Source: Heterotrichella gracilis (Eukaryota > Sar > Xanthophyceae > Tribonematales > Xanthonemataceae). From it: a stretch of DNA of 64,000 nucleotides. Each line of letters starts with the position of its first letter. Position 1 is the stretch's first letter. Under the pieces are notes generated by a model that did no database searches, was not told where the DNA came from, and was given only the letters and a program-made list of their open reading frames with translations. Below, piece by piece: positions 5,238-64,000 of the stretch. The position numbers and the translations under genes were made by a program. The stretch spans positions 41,879 through 105,878 of the forward strand of contig JAULBX010011101.1 of assembly GCA_032358255.1 (NCBI GenBank), read 5' to 3'.

Positions 5238-8200
5238 TTACTCCACGCCCTCAATCTTGTCCTCCACGTCAGTGTACAGCTGGCGCAGCCTGTCGATCTG
5301 GTCGGGGCTGGCCTCCCAGTAGCCCCTGCCGTTGGCCTCCAGGAAGGTGGCCACAAGCTTCCTGCAAAACGGGGAGGGAAAGGCGCAGTCAGCAAAAGGG
5401 CGAAACAGGGGTTGTGAGGGTGTATGCATGGCTGCTACCAGGAGGACAGGGTGAGCGGACTTGCATGACAAGACACTGCCCAAGCACTAAGTTCCAAAGC
5501 CTTGGCAAACCCCCACCCATACATAAACGCATTCCCACATGTGGTGCCCGACTCGAAGCAACCACCACCACAATCAATCCACCATCACCCGCCACAAAAC
5601 CCCACCTGAACGAGCTGGAGTTGGTGTCCATCAGCTTAAACCCTGAACCCTAAACGCACCACCTGAAGCTTCCTATGAGTTGGCGTTGGGGTCCTTAAGC
5701 CTAAACCCTAAACCCTACAGGCACCCACCTGAACGAGTTGGGGTTTGTGTCCATGAGCCTCTGCTGCATCTCCTCATCCTCGATGAACGTGGAGTTTGCC
5801 TCGTCATACACCCAGTTGTCAACCTCGCCAGAGGTGGCTGACCAGCCCATGGTGTTGGTCATGCGCTTCTGGATCTCGCGCACGCCCTCGTAGCCGGAGG
5901 ACAGCATGCCCTCGTACCTGAGGCAGTGGGGATTTGGCTGAGAATTTAAAGGGGTAATATTGGGTGCTAGGGGACCTAAATATTAGGGACCTACACATTC
6001 TCTGAGAGGAGTTTGTACAAACATGGATACTGCCCATGGTGTATGCACATATATACAACACACTCTATTCCTATGATTGCGCATACACAACACACCCACA
6101 ACCCTAACCATGCCCTGGCCTAGGGTTCCCACGCACCACTTGGGGTTGAGCAGCTTGGTGTGCGCGTCCAGCCTCACGGTCTTGCCCAGGCTGCGCACCA
6201 TCTACCCTAACACACCCTACCAGAGGGTCTCAACACCCTATAAACCCCACCCTAGTATAAACCCCATACCCCAGACAAACCCTAGCCAAAAATTTCCCAC
6301 GCACCACTTGGGGTTGAGCAGCTTGGTGCGCGCGTCCAGGCGAACAGTCTCGCCCAGGCTGCGCACTTGCGCGTTGGCGGTGGTGGTGTCCGCAATGAAC
6401 GACGCGGGCTTCTTCCCGTCCCGCCTCAGCCCCGCAACCAGCTTGGTGGGGTCGGAGTCAAAGTAGTGGGACACGTCGGTGAGCGAGATTTCCGAGGAGT
6501 CCAGGTTCTGGAAGGTGACGTCCACGGTCTTCATAGCAGCCACAAACACGTCGCGGTTCATCTCGCCGCCAGCGCCGGGCCTGTGAGTGGCGGGTTGGGG
6601 GTGGGTGAGGCAGCAAAGAGCGTGGGATGGGGGGATGGAGGTTAAGTGCGGCAAGCAGCTGTATGGCCGTGGGGGTGGGGGTGCAGCCGCTATATACCAT
6701 GCGCCCTAGATCGCCAAAGGATGCACTCTATGACATCGTGCAATGCGTTACACGTCCTGAAGTCCCATCCTCCCGTGTTACCCAGCCCCGCAGCTCACCT
6801 GTCGCTGTTGAATGCGAATGACTTGCGCGACACATACATCTCCTGCAGCTGGCTCTCATCGCTCCAGGAGCTGTTCTCCACCGCCAGGTTGACGTTGGAG
6901 GAGTAGGAGCCCGAGCTGTTTGAGAACACGCGGGTGGCGGCCTCGCGCAGGGAGACACCCATCTCCTCAGCCTGGGTGGGGAAAGGAGGGTTTGGGTTAG
7001 GGTTTTGGGAGGGGGTTGGTCAGGTTTTGAGAAGGCGCGGTCGGAGCCCACCCTTTCCGCCCAGAGAGGGCTTGTGGACAATGTATTTCCATGTTCAGTG
7101 TTAGGGCCCAGCAGCCAACTATCTCGTGCTTGTGCAGATTATTTAGGTCTAGCGTTTAGGTCAGCACTCAACCCATGATAAAGCTTTGCTCCGTGGCCAG
7201 TTGTCAGGGTTCAAACCAATGGACATTTCCAGAGCCCACCCGCTTACTCCATGCCTAGGGTTTAGGGTTACCGTATAACCCACCTGCTGCCTGGCGTGCT
7301 TGCGCACGTAGTTCATGTCCTCCGGCTCATCCAGCTCCGCCGCCATCTTCACAGCCCGATCCAGCAGGTTCATCTGGTTGACAAACAGGTCCCGGAAGAC
7401 ACCGGAGCAGTTGACCACCACGTCGATGCGGGGCCTGCCCAGCTCCTCCAGGGGGATGACCTCAAGCTTGTTCACGCGGCCGAGCGCGTCGGGAACGGGC
7501 CGGATGCCGATCATCATCAGCACCTGCGGGGGTGGGGAGGTAAGGTGAGTGATGAGGGAGGGGGAGGCATGCGTGCATCCTGAGAACCGTGGTGGAGGCG
7601 TGTGTGTGCAGTGGGTGGCGGGAGGAGGGGATTTTTTATGTTGCATGGGTGCGTGCAAGTCACCACAGCGCATGAGACCCACTGATTGAACCTGACAATA
7701 AGGTACCACACGCCGCTTCCAGGGCCTGGGAAAACAGCCCCACAGGCACCAAGGAACTGGGCGGAGTCTCACCTGTGCGAGCGACTCCCCGTAGGTCTTG
7801 ATGTTGTCTGTCCCCCACAGCACCAGCGCGATGGTTTCGGGGTACGCCCCGTTGTTCTCCACGCGCTGCCTCTCAATCAGGCGGTCCACCACCACCAGCG
7901 CGGATGCGACAGCGGCTGTGGTGGGGATTGACTGGGGATCCAGTGCGTGGATGTTCTTCCCCGTGGGGAGCACGCCGGGGTTGCGGATGGGGTCGCCACC
8001 TGCGGTGGTGGGTGGGTGAGGAATGGGGGGTGGGGATGGGATGGTTAGCCTCCTCAGCTAGACACCCGCTGGCTGAAAATCGCTGTTACAAAACTGCCAC
8101 TTGGGTCAAAGCCCTGAACTTTAGACCCTCCTTATCAGTCACATGCTTGCCATCCAGACCCTGCTTCATTGCACCCAGCCCACACACTGGCAGGAAACCC

Positions 8201-11200
8201 TGGCATAAACCCTTAAACCCTTGCTCCTCACCTGGGCCTGGCTCCACATACTCTCCGTTCAGCGCCTGCTTCAGGGCGCCTAGCTCGTTGTCCTTCACAA
8301 TCTGGCAAGGGGGGAAAGGGAGCAGGGGTCAGCAAGGGGAGGTCACAATACCCACCATATCAAATCCACCATGTGAACAACATACATCAACATCAAAGGT
8401 GACAAAAGCAATCGAAGACCAGACGTGTAAACAACGTGACGCAGCGCTGTCCAGGGTTTCTAGGGTTTTGTGCAGGGCTTCATATTGGATTCTTGTAGTA
8501 TAAGCCTCTCACCTGCTCCAGGCAGAACTCCAGGTATGTGAACAGGGTCACCAGCTCCTGCCTGTTGGCGCTCTTGAACTGGGTACCCTGCAGCGCCTTC
8601 ACCCAGGGCTCAACGCCCAGGCCTGCGGGGGAGAGGAGGGCAGGGTTAGGGCTTGAAAAGGCATGGGTAGGGTCCGACAGGCTTGACATGGCTTGGGACT
8701 GGCACTGGGATGAGGCACAGCCAGCAACATGTTGCAAAGCTGGATGGCAGCAGAGAAGCAGCACGGCAGCTGGCAGAATGTGTGGAGGATTTAGACGTAG
8801 CTTTAGGGTTTAACCCAAAGGAGGATGAATGCGCCACCCACCAGTGAACTTGGCCAGCTGGTCGAACACATTGCTGCCGATGCGCCCGTCTGCGCCTGTG
8901 CGCCGCTTGACAAACTCTCCCACAGCCACGCGCGAGGCACTGGTGATCTCCTGGAGAAGCTCAACCTCCGCCAGAATACCCTGCAGACATTAGGGTTTAC
9001 GGCATTAGGATTCGGGACTAGGGTACAGAATGGCAGGTTTCAGGCGTGATTTTAGGGTGAGGTGCTTTGGCTTTCTTTTTAGCAGAGCCACGATTCTCAG
9101 AGATTTTCCGTGACAGCGTGCGAGTTCCAAGCATCCTTTCACCGCCAACAACAGTTGAAGGGCCATGTGATTGAAACCCAGTCCCAAGCTGCACTAGAAA
9201 ATAGATAGTGCTGAGTCGCACCTTGTTGTTGTTGGCATAGATCTCCTCGATCGAGCGCCCTATGGCCTTTGCCAGGATGGAGGGCAGGCCCTTGATGGGG
9301 GGGTTGTTGTCGGGGCGGTCGATTTCAGCGATGTTGACCAGGGTGGCCACCGCCTCGTCCGCGGTGGGGGGGCAGCCAACCACGTGCAGCCCGCAGGGGA
9401 GGAGCCTGGGGGAAGAGGGGAGGAGAAGGTTAAATTTAAAACACGTAGGATTGGGGTAGGTGGGGGACATGCTGGAGTGGGGTGGGTGCAGGTATTGGTT
9501 GGAGCAAAGCATGCCAGCAGATTGTCCTGCATGCACCCGCCCCCCAGGATGGTCAGCAGTACCCTTCACTTGACCCTACACACGTGTGTATATATACCCT
9601 TCCCTTGACAGTAAAACCCCATCTTAGTGGTTCTGAAACCCCCACCCCGCGCCTCAACTCAATCTCCATGAGCTTGCAGTACACGTTGCCCACCACCAGG
9701 TCCCTAAACCCTGCCCCCAAACTCTCAACACCCCCAAAAACACCCTCAAAAATCCATTAACAACCCACACCCAACAAACCCATCGCCACTGCCCAGCCAG
9801 GCACGCCCCTTGACAGAAACAGAACGCACCTGGACTCAATCTCCATGAGCTTGCGGTACACATTGCCCACCACCAAATCCCTCTGCTCGGTGTCCAAGTC
9901 CTTGGCAAGGCCATCCGGCAGCTTCACGTCCTTGTCAAGGTTACACTGGCGGGCAGTGGCCATGATGGAGTCGCAGATGGCGGGGCCGCGGCCGCCCTCG
10001 CGCAGGGACTGGTAGGAGGAGATGAGCTCCTTCAGCTCCTGTGAAGGGGGGGAGGGTTGGCAAGTGGGTGAGCGTGGTGCAGAATCAGTGTTTAGGGTTT
10101 AGGAGAGCGTGTGGCAGTCCCTATGGCAGTGCAAACCCTAGGAGTTACACCCAATCAATATAACCCAGGCCATACAACCGCATAGAATGTGCCAGCGGTG
10201 GATTCCCTCGTACAACCCCGCGTTCTTAACAGTGGGCCAAAAAATAAGGGTTTAGGGCTTCACACTTCAGGGTTTTCGCCACCCACCTTGAGCCCCTTGT
10301 ACAGCCCCGCGTTCTCTGCAGGGGGGGTGAGGTAGGAGATGGTGTTGGCGTAGGAGCGGCGCTTGGCGATGGTGGCCTCGGAGGGGTTGTTGGCCGCGTA
10401 GTAGTAGATGTTGGGGATGGACCCGATGAGGGAGTCTGGGTAGCACACCCCCGACATGCCCACCTGCTTGCCAGGCATGAACTCCAGGGAGCCGTGGGTG
10501 CCAAAGTGGAGCACCGCGTCGGCCTGCGGGGGAGGGTTTTCAATTAGGGTTCTTGTTAGGGTTTGGAGTGAAGGGTTGTGGTGAGGGTAAGGGTTAAAAC
10601 TCCAAGGAGCCGTGGGTGCCAAAGTGGAGCACCGCGTCGGCCTGCGGGGGAGGGTTTTGGTTAGGGTTCTTGTTAGGGTTTTGTAGTGCAGAATCGTGGT
10701 GAGGATAGGGCAGGAACTCCAGAGGCTTCAGGCATGCTGGCAATAGGGCAGTAGAGGCCGTTGTGAGGGGAGGTTGTCCATAAGAACAGCAGATGCATGG
10801 CGTCATCCTCGTACACAAAGGTGGGGTGGGCTGCACCCCATGAACACACCCCACAACCCCAAAAAATTACCCTAAGATACCCTAGAAAAAACCCTCCTCA
10901 CCTCGAAGATCTTCTCCAGGTAGGTGTAGTAGGCGGCAAAGCCGTGGTGGGGGGAGGCGGAGCGCGAGAACAGCAGGCGCATGGGGTCGCCCTCATACCC
11001 AAAGGTGGGCTGCACGCCGATGAACACATTTCCAAAGGTCTTGCCGTACACCAGCAGCTGCTGGCCGTTGGAGTTGAGGTTGCCTGGCGGCTTGCCCCAG
11101 TTCTCCTCCAGGGCCTCGGAGTACTCGCACAGGCGCTGGTACTCGGGCACGTCCATCCTGGGGGTTGGAGGGTGGGGGGTGAGGGGGGAGAATGAGGGAT

Positions 11201-14200
11201 ATTGGAGCTGGTAGCTTGAGCTCAGTTTGGCTCATTTGGTGCGGGCGGTGGGTGAGGAGGAGAGGCAGTAAAAGATGGTTTTGGCGCCAAAAGCAGGTGG
11301 CGTGAATATTTTGAATGATCCGCAAATGGCAGAGAGTGGGCAGTGGGGGCGATGATGCAAGGCAGCACTAGGGCAAAACCCTAGCAAGGGTAAAGGCATG
11401 CTCCTCACCCGTATGGCACGCTGAGCTCGGTGCTTGATCACACTCTTCATCGAATCACCCAAAACCCAAAACCCTATACTCCACGCCATGACCCTACATT
11501 CCTCACCTGTATGCCACGTTGAGCTCCGTGCTGTTGAAGCGCGCCTCCTCGTTGTTGATGACGCTCTTCATCAGCTCGTCCTCGTTGGCGGGCAGGGTGC
11601 CCACGTCGTAGCCGTCGTCCTGGAGGTCCTTCAGAACCCTAGGGGAAAGGGGAAGGGTTGGTTAGGGTTTAGGGTTTTGCAGGGTGCCCATACAAACAGC
11701 TGTCGACCTGGAGGTCCTTATAAACCCCAAGAGGGAGTGCAACTACTCAGAGTGAGAGATTTAGGAACAGGAAGGGCATCGCGCAAGGCAGAAAGCTTTG
11801 ATGGATTCCTAAACCCAAAAAATATTTGAGCTCCCGCTCGAACACATGTAAGCATTCAACACATGGCAACCCACCTGTAGATGGACCCAAACACGTTGAG
11901 GTAGGCGGCGGTGCCCACGTTGCCCTTGTCTGGCGGGAAGCTGAACACAGTGATGGCAAGCTTCTACAGCTTTTTAAAACACCCACTTCTAAACTCCACT
12001 AGGGTTTTACACACCCTATTCCACCCATTTCCAAACCCTCCTTGCTACCCTAGTACCCACCTGTAGATGGACCCAAACACATTCAGGTAGGCAGCAGTGC
12101 CCACGTTGCCCTTGTCTGGCGGGAAACTGAACACAGTGATGGCCAGCTTCTTGAGCGCGGTGGGCTTCTTGGCCAGCTTGGCCCAGTTGATGGCGCGCTT
12201 GCACAGCGACTCGATCCGGTCGGGGAGCGAGTGCGACTTGCCGGTGTTGGAGTCGCGGCCCGCAAACACGATGGGCTCGATGCCGCCGTCAAGCTCGGGC
12301 AGGGCGACCTGCGGGATGGGTGATGGCGGGTTCAGGAGGGGGCTCCAGTAGAATATGGCGTGGAATTAGTCGGAGGATGAGTGGGTGGGGGTGTGAGGGG
12401 CTTGTGGTGAAGCTATTATATCCCCATGGCTGATGGGGGATAGGAAGGGGGCCTCACAACCAGGGCAGGCATCAAAATAACCCTCGCCAAGGGCATCTCT
12501 CCCGCACACAGTTTCAAAACCCTCCCAAAGGGATTTTGAATGTAGGATTTAAGGATTCCCATCCCCACAATCTTACCTGCAGCGCCACCTGCACGGGGTG
12601 CACCCCCAGCTCCGACTCCAGTCAAGGGTTTTCAGGGTTAGGGTTTTGGGGTTAGGGTTCCCGTCCTCACCTGCAGCGCCACCTGCACGGGGTGCACTCC
12701 CAGCTCCGACTCCAGCCACTCCTCAGTGGTCTGGAACACCAGGGGGAGCGACACCAGGTAGGGCACGTTCAGACCCTTGAGGGCGTCCACAGCCTTGGGG
12801 GCATCCTGGCGGGCGGGGCCACCCACCAGCGCAAAGCCTGTGAGTGGGGTTAGGGTTTAGGGTTTATAGATTAGGCATGTGACTATGCGTATGCAGTGTT
12901 GCCATTTTCTTTGTATACACTTTGGTCATATGATATATCTTATTGATAAATATTTAGTTGCAAGTTTCTCCGCAGGGTCACATCAGCGTGCAGATGCTGC
13001 ACATATGCACATGGCGCGAGCGTGCAACATGCAAAACATACAACGCATGTCCATCCCTACCAGTGAGTGACACCACGCAGTCCACAAAGCTCTTGCCAGA
13101 GCCCAGGGGGTCGTAAAAGTACTTCTTCACGGGCAGGGAGAAGTCCAGGCCGCCAGCAAACACGGGGATGACGCGCGCACCCCTGGCCTCAAGCTCAGAC
13201 ACCACACCTGCAGAGGGGTAGGGTTTAGGGTTTAGGGTTTTCTTGTAGGTTTTTTTTTGGCAGAGTAGAATTGAGTACTCCCCTTTATGTAGGTATGTAA
13301 GGGTTGCTTTGCGTAATAGGGCTGACTGCAGGATACAAGCCCATGGTTTGCGACCGGGACAGCCTTGAATTACAAGGGCACGGAGTAAAATCACCCATAT
13401 GCATTGCCACGGCGACCCTTCCGCCACCCACACCCCATACCCCAGCATGCCGGCTGCTAGCTTCGGCATTTGAATCCCCACCCCACCGCTGGCTATCTGT
13501 CCACCATTCCCAATCATGAGGCTGACAGTTGATGCACCTTATCCGGCGCTGCAGCGCTTATGATCAAACCTGGGACAGCCGCACTGCGGCACCCTACCCA
13601 CAGCACCACGCCAACCCCCTTTGCACATCCACCCAGAACGGTCCACCTGTTTGTGTGTGCAACCCCCCCATCTCCTGTCCCATCCCAGGAAAATGAACGC
13701 GGTATCGCTGTCCACCCATGCATGAATGCTTGGATTGTAGGGCAGTGCCTCTTAAAATCTCGCACTTTAGGCCTCCCCTCCCAAAACCACCCCGCACCCA
13801 CCTGCGTAGTGGCCCTCATCTCCGGTCACTAGGTGGGAGCGCTGCAGCACTAGGCCGATGATGGGGGCGTCCTTGGGCAGCTGGATGTCCCTGCGTGTGT
13901 CGTACCAGTTGAGGTACTCCTTCAAGTCCTCGTACATGGTGGGCGCCACCGGGTGCCAGATGCCGGTCTCGGGGAACAGCTCGGGCTCCTTGGTGTCGAA
14001 TTTGGACCCTGGAGGGGTGGGAAAGGGGAGGTGGATTAGGTATGATGGCTCCAGAGACCCTAGATTGTGCAATTGCTGAACCCTGGAACCCTAAACCCTT
14101 GCTGAACCCTATAGTGCGCCAAACTCGCCATTGTGCCGATTCACCATCCGGCGCATTCCAGCGGTTCCCACGCGACCACCCGCCCGCCCAAATGTATGCG

Positions 14201-16502
14201 GCCCCAGGCCTTTGCCCTTAAAAATCAGGGTCAGCTGCAGGAGTTCAGGGTTGAAGGTCGCTGCTTACCCTTGAGCTCCGGCACGTAGGCCTCTGTCAGG
14301 CTGAGCAGCAGGTTCTCAAGGATTCACGGTTTATACCTTAGGTTCTATGCAGGGTTTTCAGCGCTTACCCTTGAGCTCCGGCACGTATGCCTCGGTCAGG
14401 CTGAGCAGCAGGTTCTCCAGGTTGTCGAAGTTGCCCACCAGCCGCAGGGGCTTAAGGGTTCAGGGTCTAGGGTTTCAAAGTACCATCCTTTTGGCTCCGG
14501 CAAAAGCACCACCGCGCGCCTCAGCAGCAGGGGATCAAGGTGAAGGGTTTTTGCAGGGTTTGAGCGCTCACCCTTGAGCTCCGGCACGTATGCCTCTGTC
14601 AAGCTGAGCAGCAGGTTCTCCAGGTTGTCGGAGTTGCCCCCCAGCCAGTACTGCAGGCTCTGCACAAAATTGCGCGCGTCCTGCGCCTTGTCGCTGGGCA
14701 GGTACTTGAGCACCTTGGGCAGGGTGCGCACAAGCTTGAGCAGGCCCTCCTCAAAGTTGTCGTTGTTCTTGCGCGCGTTCTTCATGAACTGCAGGATCCC
14801 CGGTGAAATCGTAAGTTTGAGGGCAACTTCCAGTACAATCAGCAGGACTGTGATCACAATACGGGTTGCAGGACGGACTCCAGTAAATTGTGGGTTGAAG
14901 GCGAACCTCCGGTACACCTCAACCCTCTTTGATTCCTCAACTCCAATGTCCTCAAAGCTGCTTTGCAACCCTAGTAAAGCCCTAAACCCTACCTCGCCGA
15001 TCATGGACTTGCTCTGCCCCAGCTGGCTCATCTCGAAGGTCCCCAGCTTGTTGAGACGCATGACCGCGGGCATGGATGGGAACACCAGGCAGGCGTCCAG
15101 GGTGTCGCGGCAGGGCTCAACTGCGGCGGTGATCTGCAGGGGGATGCGGGTGGGTGAATTTAGTGTGGGTGTGGCGTGGTGTGGTAGGGGGAGGGGTGAA
15201 AGGGTGTTGTGTGTCTGGAGGTGGTGCAAGGTGCAGAGTGGTACTGGACTGGTGCGGTCATGCGGCTCTACTAGATGCACTTGGCGACCACCTGCCGCGT
15301 CTGTTGTGTAAAGTCTTTGGCATATTCTACAGCACTGCAAGTCCACGATGATTGCGACGTGCATCCTCCTTGCAGGTACAGCCTCCAGCCACTACCAACC
15401 CCCTTCCACCTGCTCACCCATCCACCCAGATGCTACAACATTCTGCTGATTCCCTCACACCCCCATGCACCCAGATCCCTGCCTTTGCACCCAGCCGATC
15501 CCTGCTATAAAACCCAACTTTCTCTTTTTCGCACCTTCTCAGCCAGCTCCTCGATGAAGATGAGCGAGCCGATGAAGATGTTGGCGTCGGCCACATCCTT
15601 CTGGAACATCTCGTAGTTGCTGGCATCGCGCAGCTCCTCCAGGAGGTACCCCACGATCTCGAAGCACGCCGTCTTGTTGGTGGCGTTGATGTTCTTCACG
15701 GCCTGGTCGAGGGAGGACTGGTACTGTGCCTCCAGCACGACGTACACCACCTTGACCACCTTGCGGCCATTGGCGACGGGCACCACGCGACGGGTCTCGG
15801 GGTTGGTGCTTGTGAACAGACCGCCACCTGGCACAAAGCAGGAGACAGGAAGGGTTCACGGTGTATGCTGCGTAGTTTGGGAGCCTTAGTGTGCTGGAGA
15901 GGGGAGTGTTGTCAGCAAACGGCCAACTTTTGGTTTGCATCAGATGTGAAGGGACCCATCAATGTAAGTGGTTTGTGAGCAAATGAGGCGAATATGAGGG
16001 ACGCCAGCAGCCAATTCAGCTACTTATAAGCCTGTAGTTGGAGGCTGTGGGATGCAATTGGGTGCAGGGCTTCCAGTGTTCATCGACGGACTAGATACGT
16101 GATGGTGAATATCTTACCTGGGCCACCACCCAAGTCCACCTTCACTGGCTTTGGTCCAGCTGCCACCATAGTAACAACCTACGGGGAACAGTAACAGTGG
16201 TTGACAAAGTTCGTAAACTCATACAAAAAAAGCAGCAACAGAACTGCAGGAAAGAAGCCCTCACCTTGCGTGTTTGGTTGACGCCATTGGACAGGCTAGC
16301 CCTCTGCAAGCAACAGGATTACAGTTAGACCAGCGCAACAAGCAGCAGAAGGTCATAACGCAGAAAGCCCACGAGTCCTCTGCCCCACCTTTCCAGAAAA
16401 GGGGTTGCTGCGGCGCGCCACACGGCGAGATGTGGGTGCAATCAGCTGCCTAAAGCTGCCAGTGCTGGTCTCTGCCTCGAGGGGCACCCTGTGCGACGCC
16501 AT
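5238..16502 (-). CDS. CHLH: Magnesium-chelatase subunit H, chloroplast precursor
   Basis: Large porphyrin-binding subunit of Mg-chelatase, which with ChlI and ChlD inserts Mg2+ into protoporphyrin IX in the plastid at the first committed step of chlorophyll synthesis. The model has 24 exons: 16389-16502, 16265-16303, 16118-16178, 15535-15827, 14993-15133, 14572-14788, 13802-14008, 13061-13207, 12671-12837, 12061-12308, 11507-11638, 10902-11157, 10287-10523, 9830-10038, 9222-9405, 8842-8980, 8513-8622, 8232-8301, 7773-7999, 7284-7523, 6799-6971, 6305-6580, 5729-5917, 5238-5361. Every junction is GT-AG and in phase. The sum is 4,200 nt, or 1,399 aa plus stop, the usual full length. Diagnostic stretches include [17 protein letters not shown] (exon 13), [16 protein letters not shown] (exon 6) and [20 protein letters not shown] (exon 23). 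The ATG at 16502 is chosen because an in-frame TAG lies at 16542-16544. A Ser/Arg-rich transit peptide follows. Introns carry exon echoes and CCCTAAA-like repeats. Confidence 0.97.
5603..5700 (-). repeat. Two echoes of the CHLH exon 23 donor end
   Basis: Segments at 5603-5634 and 5659-5700 each begin with the donor context (cacctgaa on the plus strand) and repeat the exon 23 3' end at 5727-5757, with substitutions. Both lie downstream of the real donor and are bounded by CCCTAAA-like sequence (5638-5660, 5697-5719). Confidence 0.7.
5697..5719. repeat. Telomere-like CCCTAAA cluster in CHLH intron 23
   Basis: Near-perfect tandem heptamers (cctaaaccctaaaccctac) lie only 10 bases from the exon 23 donor. 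Plant-type telomeres use the same unit. Here it is interstitial. Confidence 0.85.
6127..6199 (-). repeat. Echo of CHLH exon 22 donor end
   Basis: About 73 bp nearly identical to 6295-6367, the last 63 bases of exon 22 plus its donor and some intron. It lies downstream of the real exon on the coding strand. The peptide reading is conserved (TKLLNPKW), but it is not joined to the rest of the exon. Few substitutions suggest a recent copy. Confidence 0.9.
9654..9702 (-). repeat. Echo of CHLH exon 14 donor end
   Basis: About 49 bp matching 9833-9882 (the exon 14 3' end), placed downstream in intron 14 and followed by CCCTAAA/CCCTGCC-like sequence. Confidence 0.85.
10598..10683 (-). repeat. Echo of CHLH exon 13 acceptor end
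   Basis: About 85 bp, almost identical to 10479-10566. It includes the acceptor (ccccgcag), the first 44 bases of exon 13 (encoding [10 protein letters not shown]) and the preceding intron with its TTAGGG-like stretch. It lies upstream of the true acceptor on the coding strand. A short additional echo of the exon 13 3' region is at about 10203-10231. Confidence 0.9.
10796..10848 (-). repeat. Echo of an internal part of CHLH exon 12
   Basis: About 50 bp resembling 10980-11028 in exon 12 (the region around VQPTFGYE), with small indels. It sits in intron 12 and contains no splice site, unlike most other echoes here. Confidence 0.65.
11404..11452 (-). repeat. Diverged echo of CHLH exon 11 donor end
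   Basis: The segment repeats the donor context (cctcacc) and the first part of 11503-11580 with an internal deletion, ending in the block cactcttcat. It is downstream of exon 11. A short upstream echo of the exon 11 acceptor end lies at about 11694-11722. Confidence 0.6.
11870..11967 (-). repeat. Echo of CHLH exon 10 donor end
   Basis: About 98 bp matching 12057-12155 with a handful of substitutions. It holds the donor and about 90 bases of the exon 10 3' end, including the [19 protein letters not shown] reading. It lies in intron 10, downstream of the real donor. Confidence 0.9.
12574..12616 (-). repeat. Echo of CHLH exon 9 donor end
   Basis: About 43 bp copy of 12665-12717, including the donor (cacctgcag on the plus strand). 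It is separated from the exon by a short TTAGGG-like stretch at 12635-12660. Confidence 0.85.
13217..13241. repeat. Telomere-like TTTAGGG cluster in CHLH intron 7
   Basis: Two perfect TTTAGGG heptamers and flanking partial units lie just upstream of the exon 8 acceptor. Compared with 5697-5719 the orientation is reversed, so the heptamers occur in both orientations within one gene. Confidence 0.85.
14266..14452 (-). repeat. Two tandem echoes of CHLH exon 6 donor end
   Basis: Copies at 14266-14320 and 14364-14452 repeat 14568-14657, the donor plus the 3' end of exon 6 (YVPELK region). The second copy extends further into the exon. A TTAGGG-like stretch follows at 14455-14475. The three-fold repeat leaves three potential donors; only the 14572 boundary keeps the full exon. 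Confidence 0.9.
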
Positions 16503-22500: not shown

Positions 22501-22945
22501 CCTCCCGTTTAAAATGTTAATCAAGAATGTGCACATGCGCTGTGCTGGAAAAATAATCCAACTGAACGACCAAGTTATACTAGACCAAAGCCCGCAAATG
22601 AAGGGTGTCTGCATGGCTTGCCCTTGGGCAACTTGTTGTTTGCTGCTGAAGCGCACAAAAGAGTGCTCCAGGGTGTGGCGAGTCATGCAACCAGCAATAT
22701 GCATGAAATAATCTAAGGGTTTAAGCTACCATGTTACTTAGGCCTGCAGCGATACTAAATCAGGTCACTGGTCTTGCGTACTAGCAAAATTGTTGCAGCG
22801 ATGGTACCCATTAACGTGACAAATTTATTCGCACTGTACCGTCATTAGCAACGCGTCCAAAGTCTGGTCAAATCATTTGTGTTGTGACACAGAGGTGAGA
22901 TAAGGTCACACATGATCACTAACAAGAGCACTCTGCAGAGTGCCA
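19600..22945. other. Gene-free region with simple repeats
   Basis: No confident gene. An AC-dinucleotide run is at 22374-22389. An open frame at 21688-22128 has low GC third positions and hydrophobic and Cys-rich stretches in alternating frames; it may be a decayed gene but is not called. No heptamer clusters or exon echoes are visible. Confidence 0.4.
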
Positions 22946-39425: not shown

Positions 39426-39513
39426 CTTTGTCATTTACAGAGTTACTCTGTCATTTACAGACAGGTACTCTGTCATTTACGACAGGTGAAACTCTGTCAT
39501 TTACACCAGGTGC
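39426..39513. repeat. Minisatellite, about four copies of a 20-24 bp unit
   Basis: Direct repeats of CTCTGTCATTTACAGACAGG and variants, with small length changes between units. Confidence 0.85.
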
Positions 39514-51654: not shown

Positions 51655-51830
51655 ATCGGCGTTTGCATTGGATCCCTGGGATCGGACATGGGGCAGCAAC
51701 TGGCGGATAGGACCAAATCTATAGCCCTGAAGCTGCTACCCAGGGGGCGAAAGTGGTCGATGGTAGGGGAGGGATACATGGAGGAACGGGAGGTGGCTAT
51801 GTGGATGAGGTGACGGGGGACTGCGGTGCC
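51655..51830 (+). repeat. Echo of PSD terminal exon beyond the stop
   Basis: Diverged copy of 51470-51625, from the GATCGGACATGG block through GGATACATGGAGGA...GAGGTG to a TGA-bearing tail. It is the only echo that follows a terminal exon, so it would lie in the 3' UTR rather than an intron. Confidence 0.85.
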
Positions 51831-54145: not shown

Positions 54146-57100
54146 ATGAAGGAGACCTTCAAAAAACGGGTGGGGAAGTACTACCTGGGGCGAACATTGG
54201 GGGAGGTGGGTTGTGAAACCCTGTACCCTACACCCTTTGCTCCACACGCCATCTGCACCCAAGCCTGCGTACCAGCTCCAGTCCTTTGAATCTTCCCTTG
54301 AATCTTCCTTAACCCCACTTGCTTCCCCCTCCCATCTTCTCTCCCAGGGCACCTACGCCAAGGTCAAGTATGGGCAACACGTGGACACCCATGAGCCGGT
54401 GGCAATCAAGGTGAATATCCTAGGGGGTTTGTAGGGTTCTTGGGGTTTTTAGAGCCAATATGGGCAGCATGTGGACACGCACGAGCCGGTGGCAATCAAG
54501 GTGAATACCCTAGGGGGTTTGGTAGAGTACTTACGGTTCAGGGTGTCATGGTTACTTACGCATGTCAGGCAACTGCAGCGGATATGCCCAGGAGTTGGTG
54601 GCAACTATGGCGAATACTCTAAGGGGTTTTGGTAGGGGTTGACCAGGTAATCTGTGCAGGATATTTATTTTGCGCGGCTTGCACCATCCGTACATTGGCA
54701 CACCCGACACCATTTGACACATCAAGGCTGCAAAACCCACATGCATGGTCCCATTACCCTGGATCCATCTGACAACCCAATGCTGCAGCACTCATGCATG
54801 GTGCGGTCCTCTCCAAAACGCGAGATATAAATCCAGTGGTGCCTGAACCACCCCTACATCGCCAACCCTAGCACCAAACCCTACACCATCTGACAAACCA
54901 AGTCATACACGGTCCCACAACCCGCTATAAAAACCATGAATTTGGTATTCCCATTGAGTTCTTCCTCCATTGCCTGCAGATCCTGGATAAGGCCAGGCTG
55001 GTCCAGGCAGACATGGTTGACCAGATAAAGCGCGAGATATCAATCCTACGAGGCCTCAACCACCCCTACATCGTCAACTTGCGGGAGGTGATGGCTAGCA
55101 AGGACAAGATCTTCATGGTGATGGAGCTTGTCACAGGGGGGGAGCTGTTCGATAAGATTGCGGTGGAGGGGCCGATGAAGGTGGGTGGTGGGGAGATCAG
55201 GGATTTGTTCCTGGGCGGGCTGCACCTGCGTGGACCTTGTAAACCCTTAAACCCTGACCAGCAGCTCTGTTCCAGGAGTTGCCTATCCCCAATTAAAGCC
55301 CTACTTTCATACCGTACTTTCAACTCCTAACTTGTGAGTGGTATTCCACAATCGATGAACCCTTGAACCCTGTGTATGAGCCCTTGTTTAAGAACCCTGT
55401 GTATGAACCCTTGAACCCTGTGTATGAGCTTCAGGTGCTTCGGTTATTCCAGCAGCTGACTAGCCCTAATTCCAAAACCCTAATCCAAACTCTAATTCCC
55501 CTTTTGTAGGAGCCAAAGGCACGGCACGTGTTTCAGCAGCTGCCTCACTTTCCAAGCGGAGTCTATTACCTAAAACACTAATCCAAACCCTATAACCCTT
55601 GTGCAGGAGCCAGAGGCGCGGCGTGTGTTCCAGCAGCTGCTTGACGGGCTGGCATACTGCCATGAAAGGGGGATATACCACAGGTGTGCGGGGGAGGAAA
55701 CAGGCTACGCTGGTTAGGACGCTTGCAGGTCGAATAGAGGGATGGTCAAAGTGCGCGTTTTTTTGGTTCACAGCCTGGTTGCACTGGAGGGGGGGTTGAG
55801 CATGCTGCATGTTATCACGGGGATGGTCAATATGCACAATTTTCTTTTACAGCCTGCTCCTGGTGCAATGCACATGACGAATAGGGTGGACCATGCTGCA
55901 TGTTTTGACGAACAATGGTCACCAGCCACCCCCATCCTTCCGCTCCCCACTAATCCCCACCTCAACCCCACCCCTTCACAGGGACCTGAAGCCAGAGAAT
56001 GTGCTCCTGGCTTCCGACGGGACCGTCAAATTGTCGGATTTCGGTTTGGGGGCGCTGCCCAACACCACCCGCGACAACGGTCTCCTCATGACCACCTGCG
56101 GCACCCCCAACTATGTGGCACCAGAGGTGCTGACGCACCGGGGGTACGAGGGGGGGCCTGCGGATGTGTGGTCGCTAGGTGAGTGGGGATGGAAGCTTTG
56201 GGGGGGAATCATTATTGGAGGGGGGTAGGGAATGCCAGAAAAGTGCCGAGTTGCAAGTTGTCGTGGTAATGGTCTCCTCATGACCATCTGCGGCCCCCGC
56301 AAGTATGTGGCACCAGAGGTGCTGACCCACCGGGGGTATGAGGGGGGGCCTGCGGATGTGTGGTCGCTAGGTGAGTTGGTGGAAATTTTGAGGGGGGGGC
56401 GCAATAATAGGGGAGCCCTGTAAGGTCAACGATTGTCGCGGAGAAGACAGTGCTGCTCAGTATGGCGCATGCACCTGAGCAAAACCATCAACATTCTTGC
56501 TGTAATGGATGTTCGAATTGCATCCTCTTTTGGGGTAAAGTATAACTTTTGCCTCCCAGGTGTGGTGCTGTACGTGGTTCTGTCGGGCTGCTTGCCCTTT
56601 GACGAGCCCACCATCGCCAGCCTGTTCAAAAAGATCACCGCGGCGCAGTATGACACCCCCCCCTGGATGAGCGAGGGCGCCAGGCGCCTGGTGGCACGCA
56701 TGCTCAACCCAGATTACACCAAGAGGTGGGTGGGAAGAGTTCTAAGGAAACCCTAGAATCCCTAGCAGTACCCTAGAAAAAAGGGAGATGTTGCGCAGTA
56801 TGACACCCCCCTTGGTTGAGGGAGGGGGCCAGGCGCCTGGTGGGGCGCGTGCTCAACCCCGATTACAGCAAGAGGTGGGTGGGAACCAGGCACCCTGAGT
56901 TGAGCCGATCATGCGAAGTAAGATATTTTAAATTACCTTCGGAAATGCTTGGAATAGAATACCAGTCCACCTGGGCACATGATCTTGCACATGCCGAGCC
57001 CCGAATTCACCAAGTGATCGGCCAAAATGAGTCTACCTTATCCCGGCCTATAACCTGGCCCAATGCCCTACACACATGCCCTACACAAACCCTACCCTGT

Positions 57101-58769
57101 GCAGGGCCACGGTGCAGCAGCTGAAGCTGGATCCCTTGGTGATGGAGGGATACCGCCCCCTCCAGTTTGAGTCCTGTACCACAACCCTGCCCCAAAACCC
57201 TAGTCGATCAGTAGTCACTTGGGCCCGCGTTCCATTATGACCAGCAGGTGCCCGAAACCCTACCCAAACCCTACTCAAAACCCTACCCAACTGCCTGTGC
57301 AGGGCCACGGTGCAGCAGCTGAAGCTGGATCCCTGGGTGATGGAGGGGTATCGCCCCCTCCAGTTTGAGTCCCGCCACTCAAGCATCGCGGGGGGTGACC
57401 TGTTGGCTGAGGGGGAGGTGGAGAAGGAGCTGACGGTGGAAGAGCAGGTGGGGTGATGATGGTGGTGGTGGTGGTGGTTGTTGCCTTTGGTCATGTTCAT
57501 GGCGGTGGTGGTGGTGGCGGTGGTGGTTGTGGTGGCGGTGGCGGTCGTTGTGGTGGGTAAATGTCGTGGCGGTGGCGGTGGCATGCAAGAGTGACCCACT
57601 GGCTGAGGGGGAGGTGGAGGAGCTGACGGTGGAGGAGCAGGTGGGGTGAGGGCGGTGGTGGTGGTGGTAATGGTGGTGGTGGTGGTGGTTGGGTGGTTGT
57701 GGTGGTAGGAGAGTTGGTGTGAGCGAGCGGCGGAGGCGAGCGGCGCCCATTACAAAACTCTCAACCCTAAACCTCCACATCTTAAACCTTACTCCCGCTC
57801 CCACAGGCCGCCGCCACCGCCGAGGCCCACTCGGTGACCTCCCCGACCTCCCCCCACCGCATGAACGCATTCGCGCTCATCAACAGCGCGCTTGACCTGA
57901 GCGCAATGTTTGAGAAGCGGGAGGATGTGGTCAAGCGCCGCACGCGGTTCACCAGCCGCGCCGACGCCGCCGCGATTCTGGCGGGCATCGAGCGGGTGGC
58001 GGTGGCGTACGCGGCGCGCTGCGACACGTCAGAGGAGGGCAGGTCGGGTTGTGGTAGGGGTTTGGGTTGGGTTGGGGGGGGGGGGGCGGTGGGCGTGGGT
58101 GAGGAGGTCGTGGGTTTGATCCTGGGTGGGGTGCCGCGGTTTACCAGTGGAGCAGATGCCGCTGGAATCCTGGGGGGTGTAGAGCGGGTGGCGGTGGCAT
58201 ACGCTGCGCCCTGCGACACATTGGAGGAGGGCTGGTTGGGTTTTTGCTGGGGTTTGGAGTTTGGGGTGGCGGGAGGTCGCAAGGCAAGCAGACGCTGCCG
58301 CAAGCCTGGCGGGCGTGGAGCGGGTGGCAGTGGAGTACGCGCGGCGTGTTACGAGTGGTAGCGCTGGTCAGCCCCCCCCTTCCCCGGGGGTACAATTTGC
58401 CAATTTATTTACGCGAGTCTTAAAATTCGGATTAGCCCCAGTGTGTGTAGTTTGAGCCGCTGACCCCTGACACCACCCTCAACCCCCTCCCCACCCCCCA
58501 CCCTCCACAGGATCAAGGTGCACATGCGCGACAGCAAGGGGGGCGCCCTGGGGGTGGTGGCGGAGGTCAGCTCCGTGCTCCCGGGGGTCCAAATCGTGGA
58601 GATCACCAAATCCCTGGGATCCAGCATGGAGTTCTACACCTTCTACAATCTGCTGCTGGACGGGCTGGGCGAGCTGGTGCTTCGCAACAAGCGCGCTGAG
58701 GTCAATAGCCAACTCAAACACCAGCTAGAGGAGAGCCACGTGATGGCCAGGAAGAAGGGGGGTGTATGA
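54146..58769 (+). CDS. CIPK: CBL-interacting-type protein kinase (CIPK/SnRK3)
   Basis: Ser/Thr kinase that in plants is activated by calcineurin-B-like Ca2+ sensors and regulates ion transport. Nine exons: 54146-54205, 54348-54410, 54980-55180, 55607-55683, 55982-56178, 56560-56725, 57303-57447, 57807-58042, 58511-58769. They total 1,404 nt in phase (467 aa, the normal length). Kinase motifs: Gly-rich LGEGTYAKVK, VAIK (Lys41), HRDLKPEN (133-140), DFG (153-155), [10 protein letters not shown] ending at Glu182, DVWSLGVVLYV. The regulatory tail has the NAF/FISL signature [18 protein letters not shown] (NAF at 323-325), the CBL-binding segment that separates CIPKs from other SnRKs. A KA1-like C terminus follows ([18 protein letters not shown]). 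Almost every intron carries an exon echo. The gene is convergent with nothing nearby. Presence of a CBL partner cannot be judged from this window. Confidence 0.95.
54455..54640 (+). repeat. Two echoes of CIPK exon 2 donor end
   Basis: 54455-54520 copies 54366-54430, including donor AAG|GTGAATA and the following CCTAGGGGGTTT. 54558-54640 is a more diverged third copy (GGTGGCAACTATGGCGAAT). All are downstream of the real donor. Confidence 0.9.
54820..54880 (+). repeat. Echo of internal CIPK exon 3 sequence
   Basis: The block CGCGAGATATAAATCC...AACCACCCCTACATCG copies 55030-55078 in exon 3. It sits upstream in intron 2 and passes directly into CCCTAGC/CCCTACACC units. Confidence 0.85.
55436..55560 (+). 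repeat. Two echoes of CIPK exon 4 acceptor end
   Basis: 55500-55560 has an intact acceptor (ttttgtag) and GAGCCAAAGGCACGGC, a copy of 55600-55645. 55436-55475 is a shorter copy (TTCCAGCAGCTGAC). CCCTAAT-like units separate them. Confidence 0.88.
56262..56376 (+). repeat. Near-complete echo of CIPK exon 5 3' half
   Basis: 115 bp almost identical to 56078-56192, including the donor CTAG|GTGAGT. It encodes the activation-loop end, but CGTP has become CGPR. There is no acceptor, so it should be spliced out unless an upstream cryptic acceptor is used. Confidence 0.93.
56795..56890 (+). repeat. Echo of CIPK exon 6 donor end
   Basis: Copy of 56643-56733 with a small frame-breaking change (TTGGTTGAGGGAGG for TGGATGAGCGAGG) and an intact donor AAGAG|GTGGGTGG. 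Confidence 0.92.
57099..57190 (+). repeat. Echo of CIPK exon 7 acceptor end
   Basis: Copy of 57295-57383 with intact acceptor (gtgcag). Trp of LDPWV is changed to Leu, and the reading runs out of homology at GAGTCCTG. Use of this site would give a truncated kinase tail. Confidence 0.93.
57448..57715 (+). repeat. GGT/GGC trinucleotide arrays and an echo of CIPK exon 7 donor end
   Basis: GGTGGT-rich arrays at 57459-57560 and 57645-57715 flank 57596-57650, a copy of the exon 7 3' end and donor (57401-57455) with a GAG-AAG deletion. The arrays begin exactly at the donor of exon and echo, so the array was duplicated with it. Confidence 0.85.
58126..58380 (+). repeat. Two echoes of CIPK exon 8 donor end
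   Basis: 58126-58240 copies 57940-58060 (CGGTTTACCAGTGGAGCAGATGCC and GAGCGGGTGGCGGTGGC). 58262-58380 is a second copy with a CAAGCAGACGCTGCCGCAAGC start. Both lie downstream of the real donor. Confidence 0.92.
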
Positions 58770-62119: not shown

Positions 62120-64000
62120 ATGCACCGCCGCCTAGCATGGCCCGCACCAGCAAACCCTACAGGGTGTGTGCGGAACCCTAGGCACCGCCTGAGCGCAGCG
62201 GCATACCCTTCAGGGTTTGGCCCAAACACCTTGCGTGTTGCCAGTACCTGGCGGGTGGGGATGAGTGGCCGGTCTCGCCCAGGCGTGGCGGTGGCATTGA
62301 TGGGGAGCAATGAACCTGGTACGTCCAGTTATTATTATCATCATTACTATTACTATAAAATGTTACCCATATACATAGGTCGGGCCAGGCATGGTGATGG
62401 CGTCATCGAAGAGCAGTCACTCTACCACCAGCACAGTAGAATGGTATTATATATAATATTTATATATCCTGTTTACATATTGTGTCTACTCGCTCTGTTA
62501 ATATCAAATTACATATTACTTGCATTACTGAATTTATCGTATTATAGTTGTTTATGTCTTGTGATGGACCACGAGGGGGGGTGGGCTGTTTTCCCTGGGT
62601 GTGGGCACCTGCCACTGCACTTTGCGTTTGGCGTCACTCCTTCACTTGTCCCTGTGCTTGACCGGCCGTTCTGGCTGGTCGGTGCCGTGGTGCGAGCCAG
62701 TGGCCCCTGAACTCCGCCTTTGTGCGTCCCCTTTCTTTCTTTCTTTCTGTCCCTATCACATGCCCCCCCCCGCAACTGGACATGGGGAGCAAGCAGGGTG
62801 GGGGTTTACCCATGCTCTGGGAAGGGGCAGGCCACGCTGTTTTGGGGCTAGGGGCTAGGGTTTAGGGTTTATGTGCACAGGGCATGACCCTTAGCGAGGG
62901 GCCACAGGTCTCGGGTTCAACCAGTAGAGGGCTCCCAGGTTCGGTGTCATCAGGATGTTAATATATAACCTAGAAATTGAAGACCCCTGGTGCACATTCC
63001 TGGTTTATGTTTTACCACCCCTGGTGTCATTAGGGAAATACTTGTATGGTGGGCCTGTGCATGCGTCCGCACCAGGAGACCCTGGGTGAATTTTCAAGGG
63101 GTTGTGTGCCACGCCTGTGCAGGAGAGGAGGGCGTCAACGTCGGGAGGCGCACACGCCAGGTCACCTTCACCTGCGACAAATGCGGTGGGTACAAATACG
63201 AAACATTTATCTATCACTGTCTTTAATCCTCAAGTGCTCCTGTTGCACCATTGCGTTACCAGCCTGGCGCATTTCAAATTAATTTCGTTTGGGGACTTTA
63301 TGCAAAGTGATACCTTTACCATCCTTTATACCAAAAAACCAACTTTCATCCTCACTCACCACCCAGCTCCAGACCCTGTGCATTTTACAACTGGCTAAAC
63401 CCATGTCCTGCCACACAATTTTTAAAGCCCTAAACCCTAAAACCCTAAAACCCCAGGCTCGCTCACCACCCGCATGTTCAACCCAGGGACAGGAGCCTGG
63501 CGTTCTGCAGTGCTGGTCGTGCACAGCCGACAACATCCTAAGCCCTAAAACCCTAGTGACAAAACCCCAACCCCCTGAAACTCTACTTGTTAAACCCAGC
63601 ATTCCCATTTCCCCCCAGGTGTGTTTACCACCCACATGGTCAACCCGGCAGCCTGGGACAGCGGCCTGGTGTTTGTGCAGTGCCAAGGGGTGCACAGCGC
63701 ACAACACCTCGAACCCTATACCCTAACGTTGACACCCTATCCCCCTGACTACTACACCCTTCACCCTAAAACCCTAGTCCTTAAACCCTAATTCTCATTT
63801 CTCCGCAGGTGTGCGCACCACCCGCATGGTCAACCCGGTAGCCTGGGACAGCGGCCTGGTGTTTGTGCAGTGCAAGGGGTGCAAGGTGTGGCACAAGCTG
63901 CGGGATGAGCAGAACCTCATCGAAGAAATAGTATTCGTCGATGATGGGGACGAGAGGGAGAAGAGAGAGGAGGGGGTGAAGGGGGGGTCGGCGGCGGGTG
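62120..64000 (+). CDS. DNL-type zinc-finger protein (Zim17/HEP-like), cut by window edge
   Basis: Organellar HSP70 escort proteins of this family keep the chaperone soluble and folded. Exons: 62120-62318, 63123-63185, 63809 to the window end. Both junctions keep phase (codons G|GA and G|GT). The N terminus is Arg-rich with few acidic residues until the end of exon 1, as in a transit peptide. The zinc site is split by the second intron: CDKC at residues 84-87 and CKGC at 109-112, with the family stretch RTTRMVNP.AW and GLVFVQCKGCKVWHKL. The DNL motif is not intact (RDEQNLIEEI). An acidic tail follows (DDGDERE). The frame is open further upstream (from 61898), so the start is uncertain. Exon 1 contains two CCCTA telomere-like units in coding sequence. 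Confidence 0.88.
63425..63455. repeat. Telomere-like CCCTAAA/CCCTAAAA cluster
   Basis: Three tandem units, two of them of the 8-base CCCTAAAA type, immediately precede an exon echo. CCCTAAAA is the Chlamydomonas-type variant of the telomere unit. Confidence 0.85.
63452..63710 (+). repeat. Two echoes of the zinc-finger gene exon 3 acceptor end
   Basis: 63610-63710 copies 63800-63895 with an intact acceptor (ccccag|GTGTG) but has one extra base in TGCCAAGGGGTGC, which destroys the second CxxC. 63452-63525 is an older copy (CACCACCCGCATGTTCAACCC). CCCTAAA units occur between all copies (63537-63560, 63765-63790). Confidence 0.92.

Follow-up and report, generated by a model that had tools for sequence, protein, structure and literature searches.

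Tandem duplication within genes has reportedly been invoked to explain the origin of introns, in Rogers' AGGT model and by Gao & Lynch 2009, Zhuo 2007 and Lehmann 2010, and in plants tandem duplications are said, by Schiml et al. 2016 and Vaughn & Bennetzen 2014, to arise at adjacent nicks with a length close to the nick offset. To our knowledge, there is little event-by-event documentation of how introns lengthen and of what sequence they consist. In mouse and human cells, fill-in by CST-Pol α-primase at 3' overhangs yields small tandem duplications, the induced overhangs being 43 or 50 bp (PMC8355091). Telomerase inserts telomeric repeats at breaks, in some cases together with duplications, and among interstitial telomeric loci 6 of 130 in rodents and 4 of 25 in primates came with a duplication (PMC2246262, Table 1). 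Intron gain in Daphnia has been attributed to break repair with short direct repeats (Li et al. 2009, via PMC3488318), and short repeats at intron borders have been reported to be 4-30 bp long, with a mean of 11.4 (PMC11782384).

From the genome of Heterotrichella gracilis we analysed 264 kb, comprising a 64-kb window (the whole stretch of DNA presented here) and ten 20-kb pieces of other contigs, in which 37 genes and 306 introns were modelled, and we observed that about one in five of the sampled introns, 61 in all, contain part of the adjoining exon as a decaying copy, termed here an echo. The intragenic models of intron origin likewise have the exon-intron structure reshaped, but there a new intron arises and here an existing intron grows; the plant paired-nick events would share with ours a duplication at nicks, but are not known to involve telomere filler or a link to splice sites. 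The CST/Pol α system is alike in that the segment between staggered cuts is duplicated and telomere end-filling enzymes act at breaks, as we propose below, but its overhangs are induced and the portions of the report compared hold no telomere filler (PMC8355091), whereas the echoes are natural and fixed, have spacings of ~100 or ~200 bp, carry filler and lie at exon edges. Interstitial telomeric sequences, in the parts of that report compared, are also short internal telomere tracts, sometimes with duplicated flanks (PMC2246262); the present case differs in that direct repeats flank 49 of the 169 tracts in introns, where most tracts lie. Direct repeats at intron ends are taken as traces of break repair in the described intron gains as well, but these, as far as the compared sections of the two papers go, involve short repeats and the birth of an intron (PMC3488318, PMC11782384), whereas here copies of ~30-150 bp lie mostly across one splice site and an existing intron is lengthened. 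Among the matches listed in titles and abstract openings of the open-licence literature, we found no description of exon-edge echoes with telomere filler.

Genes were modelled with a self-trained HMM that admits GT-AG introns only, with a score cut-off of 60, and homology was checked in three of them (CHLH, PSD and a kinase gene). Exons called by the HMM were dropped automatically when no longer than 15 bp, and likewise when shorter than a neighbouring exon and mostly aligned to it, a rule that decides which of two copies counts as the echo. Manual corrections were made to one exon end in CHLH and to the kinase gene model. The density correlation, intron-part homology, tract position, tract-flank, edge versus intron-only and N:S figures, together with the first spacing and spacer figures, come from the models before the kinase correction; the own-intron and control match counts and the identity range of pairs come from the corrected models, with which the principal results on spacing, spacers and codons were repeated. 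A GGT-rich zone (57440-57720) and a repeat zone at 27-39.5 kb, the latter containing 24 of 163 local repeat pairs, were excluded.

In the sense orientation, 67 of the 612 pairings of an exon with its own flanking introns gave a match, compared with 0 of 3,184 for other introns of the same gene and 0 of 101,162 for introns of other genes; the corresponding antisense counts were 0 of 612, 1 of 3,184 and 2 of 101,162. The mismatched-pair and antisense controls led us to reject chance similarity and low complexity, and they bear out the claim of an earlier note on this DNA that the copies are real. An assembly artefact was rejected too: identity lies between 70 and 95% in 88 of 93 pairs, and a codon-position pattern is present. 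With direct orientation and close neighbourhood as the marks of local tandem duplication, the sense excess over antisense among own introns (67 versus 0) has this character, and direct local repeats outnumber inverted ones in 8 of the 9 pieces compared, piece L020 having neither (at score 50, 76 versus 12 in the window and 77 versus 2 in the other pieces pooled). At a score of at least 50 the corrected models yield 27 exon-intron echo pairs in the window, where more than 25 had been claimed; the list of 36 from uncorrected models included 2 double counts from the mis-split kinase gene, 4 GGT-repeat matches and 3 pairs below 50.

Matches to exon 3' ends lie downstream in 43 cases and upstream in none, and those to exon 5' ends lie upstream in 25 and downstream in none. 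A further 17 matches are to exon middles (11 downstream, 6 upstream), and none of the exon-intron echo matches in the 264 kb spans a whole exon. The earlier note had staked its reading on an own-exon excess and on this rule of side, and across the 264 kb we found both; its statement that nearly all copies lie at a splice edge also holds, the exon-middle matches being the exceptions. We stress that the side rule is not independent evidence for an interpretation: geometry requires a unit holding the donor to place its second copy downstream, in the intron, given that the gene still works. Duplication of segments mostly spanning a splice site is secure, and the original outer splice site probably remains in use. 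Homology between the intron portions of a copy pair surpasses that in all controls in 38 of 78 events, or in 35 once telomere motifs are masked; in the remaining events these portions are decayed or hold filler. Three-copy arrays are present. Introns with echoes are longer (median 432 versus 298 bp), although longer introns also leave more room for a match. Events touching an exon edge number 82 and those confined to introns 17; from geometry, edge events should make up between ~33% (for units of 100 bp) and 62% (for units of 200 bp) of the total, and the excess is partly detection bias.

The CHLH echoes lie on the minus strand (d, spacing in bp). Donor-side echoes occur at 5601..5635 (exon 5729-5917, exon copy 5724-5758, d=123, 88.6% over 35 bp, telomere-like spacer 5636-5723), 6126..6198 (exon 6305-6580, copy 6294-6366, d=168, 91.8% over 73 bp, telomere-like spacer 6199-6293), 9648..9705 (exon 9830-10038, copy 9825-9882, d=177, 87.9% over 58 bp), 11402..11434 (exon 11507-11638, d=98, 87.9% over 33 bp, score 46), 11869..11965 (exon 12061-12308, copy 12055-12151, d=186, 93.8% over 97 bp) and 12572..12624 (exon 12671-12837, copy 12666-12718, d=94, 94.3% over 53 bp, telomere-like spacer 12625-12665). 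The exon ending at 14567 has two, at 14340..14443 (copy 14544-14646, d=203, 90.4% over 104 bp) and 14263..14321 (d=303, 93.2% over 59 bp). On the acceptor side of exon 10287-10523, the echo at 10598..10710 (copy 10480-10592, d=118, 89.5% over 114 bp) is a nearly complete tandem unit with a TRF period of 118, and an internal part of exon 10902-11157 (10941-11028) recurs downstream at 10757..10848 (d=180, 75.3% over 93 bp).

On the plus strand, PSD exon 46294-46414 has an acceptor-side echo at 46118..46206 (d=144, 76.1%) and a second at 45955-46002 (d=346, 87.5%), and exon 50742-50955 has one at 50528..50585 (d=211, 81.0% over 63 bp). Donor-side, exon 47896-47995 is followed by an echo array at 48071..48331 (spacings ~129, 219 and 324; repeat family D20), exon 48450-48638 by an echo at 48834..48936 (copy 48612-48711, d=222, 80.6% over 103 bp) and exon 49599-49823 by two echoes within 49885..50052, the first of which (49888-49945, d=112) is identical at 58 of 58 positions, with a telomere-like stretch between the copies. 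The end of the last PSD exon (51302-51604) is copied in the 3' flank at 51675..51811 (d=203, 71.1% over 142 bp). Donor-side echoes in the kinase gene, which lies on the same strand and is the presumed CIPK gene of the earlier note, occur at 54459..54538 (exon 54348-54410, copy 54369-54447, d=90, 87.5% over 80 bp), 56268..56396 (exon 55982-56178, end corrected, copy 56076-56206, d=192, 90.1% over 131 bp) and 56793..56885 (exon 56560-56725, copy 56643-56736, d=150, 89.4% over 94 bp), and acceptor-side echoes at 55474..55543 (exon 55607-55683, copy 55572-55640, d=98, 82.9% over 70 bp) and 57058..57174 (exon 57303-57456, copy 57250-57372, d=192, 84.8% over 125 bp); part of exon 54980-55180 (55027-55078) also recurs upstream at 54815..54866 (d=212, 82.7% over 52 bp). 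In the putative zinc-finger gene of the earlier note, at 57.8-60.3 kb and an HMM model only, exon 57807-58042 has donor-side echoes at 58135..58276 (plus strand, copy 57943-58082, d=192, 78.2%) and 58288-58341 (d=328, 83.3%). A weak HMM model at 0.45-2.1 kb (score 52, under the cut-off) contains real local direct repeats at 984..1246 on the minus strand, spaced ~188 (copies near 806, 994 and 1179), with others at 86, 99 and 156, all outside the counts. The copies run from identical to barely visible, as had been claimed of their ages; of three examples called near-identical, the one at 49887 is so (58/58 core, 59/60 over 60 bases), and those at 56262 (90%) and 10598 (89.5%) are less alike.

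The spacing between copies is bimodal, with classes at 102±17 bp (n=54) and 200±18.5 bp (n=39; Silverman p for unimodality 0.0025); the corrected models give 54 and 40 pairs. Harmonics of three-copy arrays were rejected as the sole source of the 200 bp class, since re-alignment found no further copy between the members of the 39 remaining pairs; 14 pairs with a middle copy, 9 of them at least 160 bp apart, had been left out of the spacing set.

The DNA between the copies is enriched in the telomere motif TTTAGGG, most strongly in donor-side events with ~100 bp spacing. Mean telomeric cover of the 66 distinct spacers is 16.7%, versus 4.1±1.3% for random intron intervals of the same contig (maximum of 1,000 draws 9.8%); with uncorrected models it is 15.3% versus 4.1±1.2% (maximum of 500 draws 9.5%). 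Donor-side ~100 bp spacers (n=15) are 36.3% telomeric, compared with 2.8% of the corresponding flank beside the other copy and 2.3% for the reversed motif, and the near absence of the tract from that flank implies an insertion besides the duplication. The signal is weak in acceptor-side ~100 bp spacers (n=8, 7.0%), and donor-side ~200 bp spacers (n=28) show no excess (5.7% versus 5.8% in the flank); 33 of the 66 spacers are without any tract, and the telomere-like share of the remaining intron sequence is 2-3%. Direct repeats flank 29% of the 169 intron tracts, versus 7.8% of random positions and 1.2% of mismatched flanks, and echo density tracks telomere-motif density over the 11 pieces (Spearman 0.90). 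The internal repeats match the genome's own telomere unit, with 5,629 exact CCCTAAACCCTAAA sites (overlaps counted) versus 5 of the reversed pattern; TTTAGGG arrays stand at the starts of contigs C70 and C140, and the genome has matches to a telomerase RNA-binding domain and a Ku domain. In the freshest pair (49776/49888) the filler is imperfectly telomere-like and, by eye, resembles the sequence after the second copy. Fused telomere ends, with G-type followed by C-type repeats in one spacer, are not supported: 32 of 33 tract-bearing spacers have a single orientation, and by exact heptamers two spacers have both, one in each order.

We hypothesize that the echoes are scars of break repair in which an exon edge was rejoined to itself with an overlap, probably through telomere end-processing, and put the probability of this reading at about 0.46. 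A DNA break or paired nick would arise at the exon-intron boundary, the stretch bounded by the two cuts would be filled in at both ends before joining and so be present twice, and the gene would be rejoined to itself with overlap. In many events, above all the donor-side ~100 bp ones, the end would be extended with telomere-type repeats before joining, which would leave the TTTAGGG/CCCTAAA-like filler; candidate agents are telomerase, then a CST/Pol α-primase-type fill-in, then end-joining. With the outer original splice site kept in use, the second copy would fall inside the intron, lengthening it by the spacing, and would then decay, free of coding constraint. What we observe is duplication mostly across splice sites, specificity for the adjoining exon, a consistent side, spacings of ~100 or ~200 bp, tracts concentrated between the copies and frameshifts in the echoes; we infer the break origin, the action of telomerase and a fill-in polymerase, and an overhang length that sets the spacing. 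The excess of direct over inverted repeats, the density correlation, the homologous intron portions, the telomerase and Ku domain matches and the published CST-Pol α and telomerase precedents also count in favour of this reading. A stronger version, in which such processing (telomerase extension plus C-strand-type fill-in) at exon-intron breaks is a main engine of intron growth here, a regulated single-strand overhang of ~100 nt, sometimes doubled, sets the quantised spacing, and copied length plus filler is constant, seems rather doubtful to us. Extension of a 3' end by telomerase should place G-type tracts against the first copy and C-type tracts against the second, and the data disagree: on the donor side the closer copy is the second for 7 of 11 G tracts and the first for 8 of 13 C tracts, and on the acceptor side it is the first for 6 of 7 C tracts and the second for 2 of 3 G tracts, so that in the tract-bearing spacers we found no orientation-dependent adjacency to the expected break end. 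The skew of tracts to introns (169 versus 19 intergenic) also counts against our hypothesis, since random breaks would not produce it, and so do the unequal telomeric enrichment of the spacer classes, the tract-free half of the spacers and the imperfect filler of the freshest pair.

A possible though somewhat unlikely account is ordinary tandem duplication, caused by slippage during replication or by template switching at forks and promoted by pre-existing telomere-like tracts in introns that act as fragile sites. The homologous intron parts, the three-copy arrays and the density correlation agree with it, as does the equal tract level in spacer and flank of donor-side ~200 bp events, as if tracts had been co-copied; but a pre-existing tract within the unit should double, which the donor-side ~100 bp events contradict, and two spacings are not predicted. 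The earlier note's proposal that introns grow by tandem duplication across splice sites is only partly supported. The duplication and the greater length of echo introns stand, but tandem duplication alone does not account for all events: intron-part homology is above the controls in 38 of 78, and in donor-side ~100 bp events the tract makes up 36% of the spacer and 2.8% of the flank. The two spacings and the telomere-like DNA between copies are new beyond it. Improbable, in our view, is the placement of paired nicks or staggered breaks by chromatin (nucleosomes, or nucleosome edges at exon-intron boundaries), followed by plain fill-in and end-joining, with the telomere-like motifs as an unrelated intron feature; the narrow spacing peaks and the exon-edge excess suit it, but the tracts concentrate between copies and are flanked by direct repeats, and so are not unrelated.

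A mobile, introner-like element that makes long target duplications would fit a mostly intronic distribution and inserts flanked by direct repeats, yet it is very improbable: within the 264 kb the telomere-masked spacers share no inserted-sequence family, only 5 of 66 matching elsewhere (E ≤0.01) and over 16-37 bp, and exons had no match in other genes' introns. Scarcely credible is the reading of the echoes as functional alternative or mutually exclusive exons, for which the difference rates by codon position (0.088/0.078/0.195, the third highest) and the CHLH echo at 11869..11965, where 6 of 6 exon-part differences are at third positions, might speak. Against it, of 46 gap runs within the coding portion of echoes 42 shift the frame, 13 of 1,625 echo codons are stops, and the copies are partial; because of the frameshifts we rejected functional echo exons. 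Pairwise N:S (0.84, versus 2.65 for random changes) at first suggested conserved echoes, but one constrained and one neutral copy suffice for the third-position bias, and we read the ratio as probably reflecting such a pair plus mutation bias. To judge by their sequence, the echoes look untranslated.

About one-fifth of the sampled introns carry a directional scar next to its source exon, and in many of these scars the spacing is set and the spacer contains telomere-like filler. Intron growth thereby becomes measurable event by event and is linked to break repair, and the echoes preserve naturally occurring traces of what telomere enzymes may do at internal breaks. In CHLH the gene finder took echoes for exons, and the annotation of similar genomes may therefore carry the same error. 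Compared with Synechocystis ChlH (4zhj, phmmer), at least three echo HMM 'exons' are insertions (22, 4 and 3 residues), the 22-residue one being the echo at 11869..11965, and two more fall inside an unaligned stretch. Spliced without echoes, the PSD and kinase genes are complete, covering PF02666 over 1-197/198 and PF00069 over 3-263/263, respectively, the kinase domain being the sole domain found in the latter.

From the assembly (68.5 Mb, 903 contigs) we analysed the window (64 kb), which belongs to contig C113, and ten 20-kb stretches from other contigs, leaving out two of 36% GC (L002, L003) and two consisting entirely of N (L012, L013). C1, at 894 kb the longest contig seen, has about 36% GC at 20001-40000 (L002 and L003) against 53-59% in the other pieces read, and is possibly another replicon or organism. 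Gene models came from a self-trained HMM, with hand correction for CHLH and the kinase gene; the set comprises 37 genes with 343 exons and 306 introns (60 kb of exon, 110 kb of intron). At a score of at least 40, sense matches between an exon and the introns on either side of it occur in 67 of 612 pairs, versus 0 of 3,184 pairs with other introns of the same gene and 0 of 101,162 with introns of other genes; the corresponding antisense counts are 0/612, 1/3,184 and 2/101,162. These counts over 264 kb bear out the earlier note's claim that introns contain partial copies, or echoes, of the adjacent exon. At least one echo is present in 61 of the 306 introns and 23 of the 37 genes, and the claim extends beyond the window: of the 261 introns sampled on other contigs, 45 have an echo. 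The spread is uneven: L016 and L020, with 27 introns apiece, have none, and in L018 8/20 introns carry one. Telomere-motif density is also low in L016 and L020 (contigs C8 and C10; 0/54 introns with an echo).

The rule proposed in the earlier note, that copies of exon ends with the donor lie downstream and copies with the acceptor upstream, held without exception: counted as hits, exon 3'-end matches are 43 downstream and 0 upstream, and exon 5'-end matches 25 upstream and 0 downstream. Exon-middle matches fall on both sides (11 downstream, 6 upstream), and there are no whole-exon matches. A tandem-type duplication must yield this rule, since a donor-containing unit places its second copy directly downstream, inside the intron, and a gene spliced at the inner site would make a changed protein and be lost. 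The rule thus supports local duplication plus selection rather than a separate targeting process, and we regard exon-edge duplication, with the side rule as its consequence, as well supported. As to which copy is the exon, the HMM called several CHLH echoes exons; in the alignment to 4zhj, the ChlH of Synechocystis, followed up to the last two of these echo exons, a 22-residue block, QVAL and ADA, each repeated, appear as insertions, and two more echo exons fall in a stretch that does not align. PSD and the kinase, spliced without their echoes, give full-length Pfam domains.

Analysis of the sequences indicates that echoes decay and have no coding role. In 93 pairs from the corrected models, the coding part has 46 gap runs, of which 42 are frame-shifting; stops account for 13 of 1,625 echo codons, and divergence from the exon at the three codon positions (0.088, 0.078 and 0.195) is close to that expected for one constrained and one neutral copy; the 98 pairs of the uncorrected models give 46/51 frame-shifting gap runs and 10 stops in 1,715 codons. 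A few pairs appear better kept than this; for instance, at 12055/11869 all differences (6/6) are at third positions, and at 49776/49888 all 58 bases are identical, with intron parts beside them that visibly differ. Gene conversion may lie behind such pairs. Median intron length is 432 bp with an echo versus 298 bp without, although longer introns also give matches more room.

Two features go beyond the earlier note, the spacing of the copies and the telomere-like filler between them, and both shift the explanation towards break repair with telomere-type end processing. The spacing is quantised. We collected 163 local direct-repeat pairs and removed 24 at 27-39.5 kb of the window (27000-39500, a stretch of direct and inverted repeats that have diverged, kept out of the spacing counts); 112 pairs were spaced 60-250 bp, exon-exon pairs and those of the GGT zone (57440-57720) being excluded, and removal of 14 with a middle copy left 98. 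Of these, 54 fall in the 60-139 bp range (mean 102, SD 17), 39 at 160-244 bp (mean 200, SD 18.5) and 5 in between; two Gaussians are preferred over one by 40 BIC units, and a Silverman test for a single mode gives p=0.0025. Re-alignment found no third copy between the members of any of the 39 ~200 bp pairs. With the corrected models, 113 pairs less 14 gave 54, 40 and 5, and 9 of the 14 removed were spaced at least 160 bp. Splicing selection is not a likely cause of the spacing, because intron-only pairs (n=17) are mostly at ~100 bp and 5 of 7 intergenic pairs are near ~100 or ~190 bp. An intergenic array at L024:13657-14334 has spacings of 191, 193, 293 and 484 bp, its youngest pair being 97.9% identical. 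Repeats within predicted exons, spaced 60 to 420 bp (L006:9395-9874, L016:4324-4622, L004:15350-15606), are perhaps in part the echo process inside coding sequence.

Measured with 10-mers allowing one mismatch at most, telomeric cover has a mean of 16.7% in 66 distinct spacers versus 4.1±1.3% in random same-contig intron intervals, whose highest value in 1,000 draws was 9.8%; cover by the reversed motif is 2.2% over all spacers, and echo-free introns are 2.4% telomeric. Cover in the spacer and in the corresponding flank at the other copy is 36.3% and 2.8% for donor-side ~100 bp spacers (15), 7.0% and 3.4% for acceptor-side ~100 bp (8), 13.1% and 1.7% for acceptor-side ~200 bp (10), 5.7% and 5.8% for donor-side ~200 bp (28), and 28.6% and 11.6% for the five in between. 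Of 14 ~100 bp spacers with a tract, 12 have a tract-free flank (10% cover threshold on both sides), so the tract there lies outside the copied segment. Direct repeats flank 49 of 169 intron tracts, against 7.8% of random positions in the same pieces, 1.2% for the flanks of other tracts and 1 of 19 intergenic tracts. No inserted family other than the telomeric one was seen: 5 of 66 motif-masked spacers match elsewhere in the 264 kb, all of them shortly.

A staggered break filled in at both ends and rejoined would leave a duplication as long as the stagger. In mouse and human cells, such duplications at 3' overhangs are described as products of Pol alpha-primase guided by CST, which fills in telomere ends (PMC8355091), and PMC2246262 describes telomerase-added telomere repeats at mammalian breaks, with flanks sometimes duplicated. 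Fill-in duplication and telomerase extension acting jointly would give copy, telomere filler, copy, and a fixed overhang length would, we infer, explain constant spacing with variable filler. Both the telomerase RNA-binding domain and Ku have matches in the genome. Against telomere end-processing, however, the orientation of a tract is no guide to the copy it abuts, 33 of 66 spacers are tract-free, and donor-side ~200 bp events have no filler beyond flank level and are often plainly tandem. Filler is found mainly in donor-side ~100 bp events, and some contigs have no echoes. Exon-edge events outnumber intron-only events 82 to 17, above geometric expectation, an excess explained in part by exon sequence remaining recognisable for longer.

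Of the heptamers with 40 or more occurrences, the twelve most enriched in introns are all TTTAGGG/CCCTAAA rotations; the density of telomere-motif heptamers per 10 kb is 107 in introns, 30 in intergenic DNA and 4 in exons, and across the 11 pieces it correlates with echo density (0.90). Telomere tracts number 169 in introns versus 19 in intergenic DNA. TTTAGGG arrays sit at contig starts, and the CHLH gene lies inside the window; together they suggest a green alga as the source. Genome-wide, CCCTAAACCCTAAA has 5,629 exact 14-mer sites (overlaps included) versus 5 for the reversed pattern. The genome is rich in interstitial telomere repeats (for example G000:C173:89224-89497 and C120:45692-45792). 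Within 30 bp before TGCAGG, CCCTAAACCCTAAA occurs at 353 places and TTTAGGGTTTAGGG at 185, and TTTAGGGTTTAGGG follows CAGGTGAG within 30 bp at 55 places.
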